52,370 bases of DNA from an uncultured Owenweeksia sp. (GTDB lineage Bacteria; Bacteroidota; Bacteroidia; Flavobacteriales; Schleiferiaceae): the NCBI GenBank assembly GCA_937146805.1, contig CAKZRR010000013.1, positions 1 to 52,370 of the forward strand. Direction: 5' to 3'. Positions 26,062 through 30,139 of this stretch are shown here, one piece after another. The position numbers and the translations under genes are program-made. The notes under the pieces were generated by a model. That model worked only from the letters and a program-made list of their open reading frames with translations. It searched no databases and was not told the DNA's origin. Position 1 is the stretch's first letter. Each line of letters starts with the position of its first letter.

Positions 26062-28191
26062 TTAACTCTTCGATTCTATCATCACCTCCAAAATTCTAGC
26101 AGCAGCCTCAGCTATCACCGTACCTGGGCCAAACACGCCTACCACGCCAGCATCAAACAAATATTGATAATCTTGTTGCGGTATAACGCCACCTGCAATT
26201 ACCAAAATATCTTCGCGGCCTTGCTTTTTCAATTCTTCAATTACTTGCGGTACCAAAGTTTTGTGCCCAGCGGCTAATGAGGAAACACCTAATAGGTGTA
26301 CATCATTTTCTATGGCCTGTTTGGCGGCTTCGGCTGGTGTTTGGAATAAGGGCCCAATGTCCACATCAAAACCTAAATCGGCAAAAGAAGTGGCTACCAC
26401 CTTGGCGCCACGGTCGTGTCCATCTTGCCCCATTTTGGCAATCATAATACGCGGCCTACGGCCTTCTACTTCCTCAAACTTATCTGCTAGGTTTTGTGCC
26501 TTTTCAAATTTTTCGTCTTTCTTCATTTCTTTAGAATATACACCTGATATAGAACGAATGGTAGCTTGGTATCGGCCAAAGGCTTCTTCCATGGCCAAAC
26601 TAATTTCGCCCAAAGTAGCACGGTTGCGAGCAGCTTCTACTGCTAGGGCTAGTAAATTGCCTTTTCCACTTTTGGCGCAAGCCGTAATGGCTTGTAAGTT
26701 ATCTGCCACTAGAGCTTTGTCACGTGACTCTTTGAGTAACTCTAAGCGCGAGATTTGCTTTTGGCGAACAACCGTGTTGTCCACCTCTAAAATATCCAGA
26801 GCCTCGTCTTTTTCATTTTGATAGGCATTTACGCCAATTACCAATTCTTTTCCCGAATCTACTCGCGCCTGCTTTTTGGCGGCCGCTTCTTCAATGCGCA
26901 TTTTGGGCAGACCAGTTTCTATGGCTTTGGCCATGCCGCCCAACTCTTCCACCTCTTCTATTAGTTTCCAAGCTTTTTCGGCCAACTGAGCCGTAAGGTA
27001 TTCTACATAATAGCTACCACCCCAAGGATCTACGGTTTTGGTTGCACCCAATTCTTCTTGAATAATCAGCTGCGTATTTCGAGCAATACGAGCCGAGAAA
27101 TCGGTAGGCAAGGCGATAGCTTCATCCAATGAATTGGTATGCAATGATTGGGTTCCACCAAATACGGCTGCCATGGCCTCAATGGTAGTTCGGGCTACAT
27201 TGTTAAAGGGGTCTTGCTCGGTAAGACTATAGCCTGAAGTTTGGCTGTGGGTACGCAATGCCAATGATTTAGGATTGGTAGCACCAAAGCTTTTTACAAT
27301 TTTGGCCCATAGCATACGGGCCGCACGCATCTTGGCAATTTCCATAAAATGGTTCATGCCAATCCCCCAAAAGAAAGAAAGGCGCGGGGCAAAGTCATCT
27401 ACCTTCAAACCAGCTTTTACCCCAGTGCGGATGTATTCCATGCCATCGGCTAAGGTGTAAGCCAACTCAATATCAGCGGTGGCTCCGGCTTCGTGCATGT
27501 GGTATCCCGAAATGGAAATACTATTGAACTTAGGCATATTGTTTTTGGTGTACTCAAAAATGTCCGCCACTATTTTCATAGAAGGTAGAGGAGGATAGAT
27601 GTAAGTATTACGCACCATAAACTCCTTAAGGATATCATTTTGTATAGTACCCGAAAGCAATTCAGGTTTTACGCCTTGTTCCTCAGCAGCTACAATGTAA
27701 AAGGCCATAATGGGTAACACGGCCCCATTCATGGTCATGGAAACCGACATTTTATCCAAAGGAATTTGATCGAAAAGGATTTTCATATCCTCTACGGTAT
27801 CAATAGCAACTCCAGCCTTACCAACATCTCCTTGCACACGTTCGTGATCCGAATCGTAACCACGGTGAGTAGCTAAGTCAAAAGCAACGGAAAGGCCTTT
27901 TTGACCCGCTGCTAAATTTCTTCTGTAAAAAGCATTACTCTCTTCGGCCGTAGAAAAACCAGCGTATTGGCGAATCGTCCAAGGGCGAATAACATACATG
28001 CTAGAATAGGGGCCACGAAGGTTAGGAGCTATCCCTGCCACATAATTGGTATGCGAAAGTTTTTCAAAATCTTCTTTTGAAAATTCAGAAGGAACTTCAA
28101 TTTCTTCGGGCGTAAGCCAGGTTTTGGTGCTGGCTTCATTTTTTGAAGAACTAGATTGGTATTGGGTATTTTGGAAATTGTGTCTTTTCAT
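26062..28191 (-). CDS. mutB: methylmalonyl-CoA mutase, large (catalytic) subunit
   Basis: 709 residues, the normal length. The N-terminal TIM-barrel starts with the substrate-binding [18 protein letters not shown]; the middle holds the [12 protein letters not shown] signature; the C-terminal cobalamin-binding domain has the DxHxxG motif as [11 protein letters not shown] at about 585-592. It isomerises (R)-methylmalonyl-CoA and succinyl-CoA by a radical mechanism with adenosylcobalamin. It is separated from the small subunit gene mutA by a DUF559 cassette, an interruption of a normally contiguous pair. Confidence 0.97.
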
Positions 28192-28215
28192 AATGCTAGT
28201 TACTTGTGTTGTGTG

Positions 28216-28300
28216 ACCTCACCCCTCCAGAGCGAAAGCTCTGGTTTCCCCTCTCCATGTGGAGAGGGGGGTGCAAGACGTAGTCTTGCAGGGGAGAGGT
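28216..28300. repeat. left end of the DUF559 cassette: cloverleaf-like palindrome cluster
   Basis: Three perfect hairpins in a row: CCAGAGC-gaaa-GCTCTGG (28227-28244), CCCCTCTCC-atgt-GGAGAGGGG (28248-28269) and TGCAAGAC-gta-GTCTTGCA (28272-28290). An outer stem of 10 pairs with one A-A mismatch (28216-28225 with 28291-28300) encloses them, so the DNA or RNA could fold into a three-armed cloverleaf. Confidence 0.8.
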
Positions 28301-28313
28301 TGCGCGCTATTGC

Positions 28314-28685
28314 TTAACTTTCTTGTATCACCTTTCTTATTTTATCTAAAACCTCGACAATATTATTCATCACTTCGTTATTGGTGAATCTCAAAAAGCG
28401 ATAACCTAGTGATTCAATAAGGGTTTGTCGTTGTTCATCATTTCTTTTTACTTCTGGGTCTAGATGAATCCCTCCATCTACTTCGATTATTAGCTTCTTT
28501 TCAAAACAATAAAAGTCAACAATATATTTATCTATCGGATGTTGCCTTCTAAATTTCACTCCTAGCCTTTGTCCTCTAACCTTTTGCCATAATCTATCCT
28601 CTGCTTCGGTAGACTCCTTGCGAAGCATACGTGCAAATTCAAAGGTATTGCCTTTGGCTTTATGGTGCATGTTTGATTTTGGCAT
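28314..28685 (-). CDS. DUF559 endonuclease domain protein (Vsr-like fold)
   Basis: 123 residues. The DUF559 nuclease core is seen in ARMLRKESTEAEDRLW, VKFRRQHPIDKYIVDFYC and KLIIEVDGGIH. The Asp of VDFY and the EVDG acidic group are the probable metal-binding residues shared with very-short-patch-repair and restriction-type nucleases. Single-domain DUF559 proteins are widespread, often among repeats, and their role is not established. Here it is the only gene of a palindrome-bounded cassette set between mutA and mutB. Confidence 0.88.
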   Translation of the reverse strand: MPKSNMHHKAKGNTFEFARMLRKESTEAEDRLWQKVRGQRLGVKFRRQHPIDKYIVDFYCFEKKLIIEVDGGIHLDPEVKRNDEQRQTLIESLGYRFLRFTNNEVMNNIVEVLDKIRKVIQES

Positions 28686-28717
28686 TGGGTAATCTGTTTG
28701 GTTAATATTGGGGAGCT

Positions 28718-28767
28718 ACCTCGCCCTGCAAGACTGCGTCTTGCTTTCCCTCTCCATATGGAGAGGG
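28718..28767. repeat. right end of the DUF559 cassette: inverted counterpart of the left end
   Basis: Holds GCAAGAC-tgc-GTCTTGC (28728-28744) and CCCTCTCC-atat-GGAGAGGG (28748-28767), both perfect. The reverse complement follows the left end from 28248 to 28300 in the same order with short loop and linker differences. It lacks the third hairpin (CCAGAGC) and the outer stem of the left end. Confidence 0.8.
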
Positions 28768-28774
28768 AGTTGAG

Positions 28775-30139
28775 TTATGGTTTCTCCAATCCTTCAGACA
28801 GCCTCCTGGGCACAATTCTTTGTATTTCGGTTTCTTTATCCTTGCCAGCAAACATCCCGTATTCAATCAAGTCTGTAAGATTTTCATTCGTCTTAGCGTG
28901 CTTATTAGCTCCTATTAGCACGTTGTTTTTTTCGTCAAAAGCCAATTGTTCTTTGTTGGCAGATTCTTCCACTTGGCTTTGCAGCCAACCATTTTGTAAA
29001 CTTGCTATATAACCACCCTGGGATTCTATCGCTTTAAAGAAGTCCCAGCCTTTTTGGGCTAATTCCTCCGTAAGGGTTTCTATAAAATAGGTTCCTTTTG
29101 AAATATCTGATACGGCACTCAAATGACTTTCGTGCTCTAAAATGTTTTGCTGGTTTTTGGCAATACGCTCTCCAAAAAAGTCCGGCTCTTTGTAAGTGTG
29201 ATTAAAACCTTTAACCGAGATTTCATTAGCACCACCAATGGCTGCAGCCATGGCCTCAGAGGTTGTTCGTATTTGATTATTGTACGCATCCAAAATAGTT
29301 TTGTTGCGCAAGGCAGTTTCTGCGTAAATGCTAATTTCTTCTGCTGGAAGGTCAAGTTCATTTTGCATTTGTAACCACAATCTTCTGAAAGCACGGAGTT
29401 TGGATATTTCCCCAAAATAGTCAGAACCAATAGCAAAGTTGAACCAAAAACCTTGGCTATCTTTTGGCTCCAGCTGATGCACGTATTCATAACCCATGCC
29501 TAGAGCTATTCCCAATTGTTGGCTTAATGTGGCGCCTGCATTTCCAAATAGGTTGGCATTAATGCAAACGTTTTTAAACCCTTTAGGTAAAGTGCTGCCA
29601 AGCGTTTTAATGTCTTCAAAATCATTCTGCTGGTTGCTTTTCCAATTGCCTGTACGGGCAATGCTTTCTAGGCAATCCATATTTACCGAACCGTGTAATT
29701 CACCTGGATTCCAACCTCTATTGGCGATAAGTGTATTCAAGCTTTTAGCGAAAGCAGCAGCATTTCCTTCCACCACAAAGTGGCAATTTATATACGGAAG
29801 TTCGATTTCACTTAACAACTGACCTAAATCGGTATTGTCATAGAGATAAAAGAGCAGGGCATTTGCTCCACGATTAAGATGATCTAAGGCTTCTTTATTA
29901 GCTTGCTTGGCATCGGCTACAAACAGCTCCTGAACTATGTTCCAGCTTGCTTGTTTTTTGGTGGGTTGAGGTTTTGTCTCGGTGTTGTCTTTGTGGTAAA
30001 AAGGCTGAACTTCAATACCATCTGCTGTGGTAGAAATGAGTTGGCTAAAGGCTTTGCCTTTTAAGTCTTTTTCTATTTGTGCTTTCCAATCTGCGGAACT
30101 GCTTTTCGAAAAATCCTTAAATAAGTTGTCTGAATTCAT
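28775..30139 (-). CDS. mutA: methylmalonyl-CoA mutase, small subunit
   Basis: 454 residues. It has the mutase TIM-barrel fold with family signatures such as VVEGNAAAFAKSL, QLGIALGMGYEYVHQLE, and the TIRTTSEAMAAAIGG-like segment (RTTSEAMAAAIGGANEI). It lacks a C-terminal cobalamin-binding domain (no DxHxxG), so it is the non-catalytic partner that pairs with MutB. The short length relative to some small subunits agrees with loss of that domain. Probably the first gene of the mutA-DUF559-mutB transcript; an imperfect -7 box (GACCTTTG) lies near 30160. Confidence 0.93.
   Translation of the reverse strand: MNSDNLFKDFSKSSSADWKAQIEKDLKGKAFSQLISTTADGIEVQPFYHKDNTETKPQPTKKQASWNIVQELFVADAKQANKEALDHLNRGANALLFYLYDNTDLGQLLSEIELPYINCHFVVEGNAAAFAKSLNTLIANRGWNPGELHGSVNMDCLESIARTGNWKSNQQNDFEDIKTLGSTLPKGFKNVCINANLFGNAGATLSQQLGIALGMGYEYVHQLEPKDSQGFWFNFAIGSDYFGEISKLRAFRRLWLQMQNELDLPAEEISIYAETALRNKTILDAYNNQIRTTSEAMAAAIGGANEISVKGFNHTYKEPDFFGERIAKNQQNILEHESHLSAVSDISKGTYFIETLTEELAQKGWDFFKAIESQGGYIASLQNGWLQSQVEESANKEQLAFDEKNNVLIGANKHAKTNENLTDLIEYGMFAGKDKETEIQRIVPRRLSEGLEKP

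Follow-up and report, generated by a model that had tools for sequence, protein, structure and literature searches.

A nuclease gene cassette between mutA and mutB

The window, a stretch of 52,370 nucleotides from an uncultured Owenweeksia sp., carries the genes for both subunits of methylmalonyl-CoA mutase, and between them lies a short cassette made of a single gene and two hairpin-rich ends. The gene mutB is named from an earlier reading made from the letters of the DNA (hereafter the sequence-only reading) and from the similarity of the neighbouring MutA query to it. The features of the locus are as follows.

26062..28191, minus strand: mutB, methylmalonyl-CoA mutase large subunit (709-aa ORF), the host gene on one side
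28217..28299, unstranded: left cassette end, a TM/BoxC-type repeat with a cloverleaf form, comprising three hairpins (28227-28244, 28248-28269 and 28272-28290) and an enclosing stem
28314..28685, minus strand: DUF559 (EDxHD, Vsr-like) nuclease gene (123 aa; Pfam DUF559, E 1.7e-36)
28724..28768, unstranded: right cassette end, two hairpins (28728-28744 and 28747-28768) that repeat two of the left hairpins in inverted form
28775..30139, minus strand: mutA, methylmalonyl-CoA mutase small subunit (454-aa ORF), the host gene on the other side, with orthologues in relatives

The mutB start (28191) is separated by 25 bp from one cassette edge, and the other edge adjoins the mutA stop (28775), as the sequence-only reading had placed them. 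Two hairpin motifs, CCCTCTCC-N4-GGAGAGGG (28249-28268 and 28748-28767) and GCAAGAC-N3-GTCTTGC (28273-28289 and 28728-28744), stand in inverted order at the two ends. Complementarity between the left and right hairpin copies is 95% (over 21 and 20 nt), and for each motif none of 100 shuffles of the window had two or more matches (at most two mismatches). Folded as single-stranded DNA, the left end forms three hairpins within an enclosing stem (-29.4 kcal/mol, z -6.1), and the right end forms two hairpins without such a stem (-18.8 kcal/mol, z -5.4); in both cases 0 of 200 shuffles folded as well. These results bear out what the sequence-only reading had described: a DUF559 gene between clusters of perfect hairpins, a left end able to fold as a cloverleaf, and a right end that repeats two of the left hairpins in inverted orientation.

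The cassette protein matches DUF559 and, more weakly, MTES_1575 in Pfam and nothing else, so that no Y1 (HUH) transposase was found in the window element. The interval 27900-29000 was also searched for an intron or known RNA with Rfam; the scores of group-II-D1D4-3 (22.4 against a threshold of 32 bits) and whalefall-1 (16.3 against 37) are sub-threshold, and we therefore claim neither. The group-II-D1D4-3 match, at 28872-28988 on the minus strand, lies inside mutA and is probably due to chance.

Occupied and empty junctions in relatives

The sequence-only reading had proposed comparing orthologous mutA-mutB junctions for empty sites, and these are present. Of 22 mutA loci tried in relatives, 15 were measurable. 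The gap between the two genes is 583 bp in the genome of the window (G000) and 577 bp in G001, these being two species of the genus, whereas in the 13 remaining relatives it ranges between -11 and 71 bp; it is 71 bp in G002, a single-contig complete genome in the same genus. The short gap in the 13 relatives indicates that the cassette is an insertion. In a third species, G003, the cassette adjoins mutB and the gene on its far side is not mutA, possibly through rearrangement or misassembly, between which the fragmented assembly does not distinguish.

The cassette ends are of the TM/BoxC type

By their design, the cassette ends are assigned to the intrastrand triplex motif (TM)/BoxC repeats, which occur in E. 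coli and more than 260 genomes (Holder et al. 2015, PMC4666352). Compared with Table 1 of that paper, they share the succession of CCCTCTCC, a loop, GGAGAGGG and then a GGGGTGAGG arm. The left end, which reads CCCTCTCCACATGGAGAGGGG ... GGGGTGAGG on the minus strand, has the C/T-rich arm, the short loop, the complementary G/A arm and the G-rich GGGTGAGG arm of a TM; at the right end the hairpin is present and the third arm has decayed. The available text of Holder et al. 2015 reports no mobility gene around the E. coli TM copies, whereas here a nuclease gene stands inside paired copies.

TM/BoxC repeats are typically many-copy, and the sequence-only reading had likewise expected orphan hairpins, an expectation that failed for this genome: within its 3.16 Mb, CYCTCTCC-N4-GGAGAGRG has no copies beyond the two at the cassette. 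Other Bacteroidota genomes hold up to 39 copies of the TM-type hairpin.

A comparable arrangement is found in E. coli MG1655, where the fabI-ycjD interval contains TM no. 9 (1,351,204-1,351,239) at a distance of 168 bp from ycjD (1,351,407-1,351,760, annotated DUF559; region read, 1351040-1351760). Because nos. 16, 19 and 22 are identical to it in sequence, no. 9 was identified by its MG1655 position. YcjD belongs to the same DUF559 family and has a TM copy alongside, and in strain KE47 two further repeats, both degenerate, lie in this interval. Of 5426 E. coli genomes, 3361 match the ycjD region, in the sapF-fabI interval, over 80% or more of the query. Three strains that lack ycjD have the efflux operon eefRABCD in its place, a replacement also described for some E. 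coli in the accessible part of PMC12817139; as another operon occupies the interval, these strains were rejected as clean empty sites. Our literature search, conducted mostly without subscription journals, returned no paper connecting DUF559 with these repeats and none on translated-repeat peptides.

A conserved EDxHD nuclease

The cassette protein is an EDxHD/Vsr-like nuclease and not a Y1 (HUH) transposase. Residues E29, W33, Q48, D57, E68, D70, G71, H74 and D83 are conserved in all 118 rows of our DUF559 alignment, the active-site residues are invariant in all 41 rows from long ORFs, and the window protein itself carries E29, D57, E68, D70, H74 and D83. A profile of 43 DUF559 proteins matched the putative endonuclease 3hrl (3e-36) and the homing endonuclease I-Bth0305I (3r3p; 3.6e-7) in the PDB. 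Foldseek with an AlphaFold model of the window protein (mean pLDDT 87) likewise gave 3hrl (E 4.5e-8) and I-Bth0305I (8e-5), with Vsr weaker at 0.14. These placements agree with the available text of two reports, one placing YcjD in the PD-(D/E)XK superfamily near Vsr (Kosinski 2005, PMC1189080) and one assigning a DUF559 gene to the EDxHD homing family (PMC9403480). Matches of DUF559 in PADLOC are weak (E 6e-6 or worse).

Between G000 and G003, dN/dS is 0.069 for the cassette copies and 0.084 for second copies in ileS (see below); against the G001 cassette copy, synonymous sites are saturated. The ratios and the alignment indicate a conserved active site under purifying selection. The DUF559 tree has 118 rows representing 117 places (the window copy and one locus of the sample are identical), 20 of them picked for a long ORF. 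Many of its forks lack resolution; the window copy groups with those of G001 and G003, outside a clade of 14 (support 99/96) that unites the IleS, MetH, RecG, LeuS, UvrD and PurL copies and contains no free-standing gene.

Association of hairpins with DUF559 genes

A first sample was drawn by a scan of genome contigs, which gave 80 DUF559 relatives from many phyla; 40 relatives gave 28 matches. For 76 small DUF559 genes with usable flanks, the alignment of left to right flank exceeded the 95th percentile of mismatched pairs in 43 and the 99th in 16. A pyrimidine-rich hairpin lies within 250 bp of 58 of 73 small DUF559 genes from many phyla, and on both sides of 30. In the noncoding DNA of the same loci there are 77 hairpins in 14,969 bases near DUF559 versus 16 in 25,223 far from it, or 5.1 versus 0.63 per kb. 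Small GIY-YIG genes, used as a control and tried as a second possible passenger, had such a hairpin beside 0 of 11; 13 of 30 of these loci were parsed, and 17 were dropped for no clean frame. No other gene was seen between paired hairpins in the loci read, a small search of 20 stretches.

In the Bacteroidota, we compared 20 free-standing DUF559 genes, selected by us among the short ORFs with the best scores that were not near a contig end and including one genome (G203) already familiar to us, with the 20 best-scoring Y1_Tnp genes, one per genome. A hairpin was found within 300 bp of 18 of the DUF559 genes (14 on both sides) versus one Y1_Tnp gene, where its sequence is different (p 6e-8). The left and right arms of one cassette are identical in 12 of 14 cases (mean match 0.93, against 0.68 when shuffled between cassettes; 0/2000 as high), and the agreement holds across 46 pooled cassettes (0.92 against 0.67; 0/2000 as high). 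Nuclease similarity and arm similarity are weakly correlated (Mantel rho 0.15, 0/500; distant pairs 0.10, 0/500), to which shared host ancestry may add. Statistically, each nuclease thus appears to be tied to its own hairpins. Flanking repeats of the cassettes may be direct or inverted, unlike those of a simple transposon.

Two hairpin arrangements in the loci read deserve separate mention. In seven loci, mostly of Mesorhizobium (L020, L023, L024, L035, L036, L055 and L070), DUF559 is surrounded by inverted CCTTCTCCC hairpins, which we take to be reminiscent of rhizobial RIME elements. A stretch without DUF559 (L300; G117, contig C2, 134000-138000) contains a tandem array in which two hairpin types alternate, with nine pyrimidine-rich hairpins packed into roughly 1 kb of noncoding DNA.

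At the level of whole genomes, 198 Bacteroidota genomes were searched with CCCTCTCCN{2,8}GGAGAGGG, which represents one hairpin type of several and whose backward control gave 0 matches in all 198; the pattern CCYYYYCCN{2,8}GGRRRRGG was dropped as noisy, its backward control reaching 6 per genome. DUF559 is present in 84 genomes and the hairpin in 56, with 42 genomes having both, 42 DUF559 without the one hairpin type searched, 14 (of the 114 lacking DUF559) the hairpin only, and 100 neither (OR 7.1, p 9e-9; stratified by family, OR 4.3, p 0.004). Genes for Y1_Tnp, found in 111 of the genomes, also co-occur with the hairpin (44/111 versus 12/87 in genomes without Y1_Tnp; OR 4.1, p 6e-5), yet Y1 genes are not flanked by it. 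The link between DUF559 and the hairpin persists within Y1-positive genomes (OR 7.4); that between Y1 and the hairpin has an OR of 2.3 (p 0.17) in DUF559-negative and 4.1 (p 0.009) in DUF559-positive genomes. Because the latter association persists, Y1 enzymes may be a second factor.

Full-length and deleted copies in Spirochaetes

Two cassettes in one Spirochaetes genome (L010 and L025) have DUF559 genes in units that are 91% identical, with similarity ending abruptly at both ends. The unit thus delimited, of about 480 bp, consists of a terminal inverted repeat CTCGAGTTAGGCGA, a TM, DUF559, an inverted TM and the terminal inverted repeat again, and its sole ORF longer than 60 aa is DUF559. 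This genome and a related one contain 92 and 89 matching pieces. We fetched 20 of these loci, representing 19 distinct places: two copies are full length with both ends, two are long and incomplete, one is a fragment and 14 are internally deleted, lacking the central portion of DUF559 so that the left and right parts abut. Deletion junction 223|404 is common to three places in one genome and 133|405 to six in the other, which indicates deletion derivatives that multiplied and points to an autonomous/MITE relationship between full and deleted copies.

Direct flanking repeats, counted as unambiguous when not explicable as an extension of the inverted repeat, were found at three places (L354, TTATTA; L358, TAATAA; L359, TTAATAA). 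At L360 and L363 the repeat TAATTA is ambiguous in this respect, and at L356, L368 and L373 direct flanking repeats are absent. Neither terminal inverted repeats nor direct flanking repeats of this kind were found at the window copy. Together with the empty mutA-mutB junction in 13 of 15 relatives measured, the dispersed deletion derivatives of related DUF559 elements give good support to the mobility that the sequence-only reading had proposed.

In-frame copies inside host proteins

The sequence-only reading was confined to an intergenic copy; the element also occurs in frame inside genes that lie outside the window, one of them in the same genome. There, ileS holds a second DUF559 cassette (L001; G000, contig C1, 34158-34484): two conserved ileS motifs are separated by 561 bp in both G000 and G003, against 129 bp in both G001 and G002, so that the insert measures exactly 432 bp; it was found in 2 of 30 IleS loci read. 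In a Pfam scan of 16 long-ORF DUF559 proteins, host domains flank DUF559 on both sides in 13, namely IleS, MetH (three), RecG (two), LeuS (four), a TlyA-like FtsJ protein, HsdR and UvrD. Of the remaining three, IspE and an M14/AstE-type peptidase have one-sided Pfam support, and a PurL-type protein carries a C-terminal DUF559. A nested recG copy (L012) belongs to a cultured isolate, Flavobacteriaceae strain Hp32. The nested domains keep the hairpins close at hand: a pyrimidine-rich hairpin is present no more than 250 bp from 35 of 42, and on both sides of 22, whereas flanks taken outside the whole long ORFs have a hairpin in only 4 of 14.

Repeats without DUF559 also occur in frame. Two stand about 600 bp apart in the urocanase of G020 (L301; C7, 872-3061, minus strand), two in IleS of the same genome, and one, read as a peptide, in an Lhr-type helicase of G001 (L313; C23, 1415-2491). 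TM sequence is poor in stop codons, with five of six frames open in E. coli TM no. 1 and four of six in no. 9 and in each window end, and in frame it reads as linkers such as PLPVGEGRGE; with so few stops, insertion into a gene could leave the reading frame open across the element.

Relation to known systems

The cassette at mutA-mutB represents, in intergenic position, a widespread element, one of a class with palindromic, pyrimidine-rich ends of the TM/BoxC type around a single gene, DUF559. This larger class has apparently not been described so far. The sequence-only reading had likened the cassette to elements of the IS200/IS605 or REP type, a likeness that stands as a way of working and falls as membership, given the EDxHD rather than Y1 enzyme. 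REP/RAYT systems share the palindromic ends, the cognate enzyme gene between two of them and the solo copies elsewhere; their enzyme is HUH, and here one in 20 Y1_Tnp genes has hairpins of this kind. MITEs with an autonomous parent share the amplified, internally deleted copies that keep the parent's ends, but the parent here has only DUF559 and neither a DDE nor an HUH transposase. The MITE-like features are those of the Spirochaetes relatives (target duplications being unambiguous in three places only); they were not seen at the window copy.

Rickettsia palindromic elements (Ogata 2000) are translated as in-frame insertions within conserved proteins (PMC2229807, PMC10969869). The in-frame position is shared by the related copies and the ileS copy of this genome, while the window copy is intergenic. 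As described in the available text, those elements measure about 105-150 bp with no nuclease, whereas the present ones encode the DUF559 nuclease and are spread over many phyla. To EDxHD homing endonucleases such as I-Bth0305I (PMC3943268, available in part) the cassette protein is linked by its fold and by the E-D-H-D residues (E29, D57, H74 and D83, in 118/118 rows). Those enzymes are long proteins with tethered DNA-binding regions, while DUF559 is here a single domain of 123 aa without a long DNA-binding part, and in place of an intron or intein setting it has palindromic ends and deletion derivatives.

A candidate mobility enzyme

DUF559 is probably the mobility enzyme of this class of elements. 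Comparison of the DNA, in the window copy or in related members, shows a unit that moves as a whole, carries cognate ends and yields amplified deletion derivatives; the mutA-mutB insertion, the in-frame insertions and the solo copies are read from the same comparisons. From these observations we infer that DUF559 does the moving, by hairpin recognition and cleavage, and how the ends are joined. In the proposed mechanism, the EDxHD nuclease would act on its own element's hairpin ends, extruded or single-stranded, and thereby bring about the copying or transfer of the element and its shorter gene-less copies to new sites, while joining is left to host repair or recombination. To our knowledge, a lone hydrolytic nuclease has no strand-transfer activity, and host factors would therefore be needed. 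Also weighing against this reading are the lack of dispersed copies of the exact hairpin in G000, the genomes that have DUF559 or the hairpin type searched without the other, the association of Y1_Tnp with the hairpin, the small number of unambiguous direct repeats in Spirochaetes and the absence of such repeats and of terminal inverted repeats at the window copy, the mixed orientation of flanking repeats and the different neighbour in G003. Where the element lands in a gene, the host protein would gain a loop or a nuclease domain, with no splicing.

A different history is conceivable, though we consider it unlikely, in which the TM hairpins are older and spread by other means, while DUF559, as a homing-type endonuclease, cuts a solo TM and is copied in by repair from a TM-flanked copy. 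It would suit the fold shared with I-Bth0305I, flanking repeats that are often direct copies (L096, L102 and L104), the frequent clustering in the tree of nested copies at one protein site, and the short solo insert that G020 has at the IleS site holding DUF559 in G000 and G003. That insert is an exception, however, as the empty mutA-mutB and ileS sites of relatives are otherwise without a solo repeat, and the direct flanking repeats in Spirochaetes point to insertion at repeat-free sites. Moreover, both terminal portions of DUF559 persist between the ends of the Spirochaetes derivatives, and those solo copies thus derive from DUF559 elements.

That the repeats are moved by another enzyme, for example a Y1 (RAYT-type) transposase, with DUF559 as cargo, appears less likely still: the hairpin is indeed commoner in genomes with Y1_Tnp, but it accompanies DUF559 genes and hardly ever Y1_Tnp genes, the DUF559 link persists within Y1 genomes while the Y1 link is weak without DUF559, and no other gene was seen between paired hairpins in a small search of 20 stretches. 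A fixed gene, with hairpins acting as terminators or mRNA stabilisers and a nuclease serving in repair or defence, is very improbable. Vsr is a repair nuclease, the weak PADLOC matches leave room for defence, and CCCTCTCC hairpins at the 3' ends of genes in Enterobacter sp. 638 have been read as terminators (PMC2869309, available in part); against this stand the in-frame copies, the deletion derivatives, the matched ends at unrelated loci and the empty sites. The sequence-only reading had itself taken a lack of empty sites in related species, along with a lack of dispersed copies, as the mark of a fixed gene, and the empty mutA-mutB junctions refute that explanation.

With DUF559 preferred as the mobility enzyme, a broader proposal can be made, to which we give somewhat less than even credence. 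A lone EDxHD nuclease domain might supply all that palindromic BoxC/TM elements of different bacterial phyla need for mobility, moving itself and mobilising gene-less copies in trans through host repair, with one lineage living in frame in essential proteins (IleS, LeuS, MetH and RecG) like an intein that never splices. It would be a new kind of transposable element, and we know of no transposon that moves with a hydrolytic nuclease as its sole protein.

The DUF559 element is a good candidate for the spreader of a common bacterial repeat whose mover was missing. Should DUF559 prove to be that mover, an orphan class of repeats and a protein domain without a settled function would account for one another. 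The hypothesis is testable at once with ycjD of E. coli K-12. The in-frame copies, for their part, show that aminoacyl-tRNA synthetases and further housekeeping enzymes tolerate a mobile nuclease domain, an observation relevant to the acquisition of domains by proteins.
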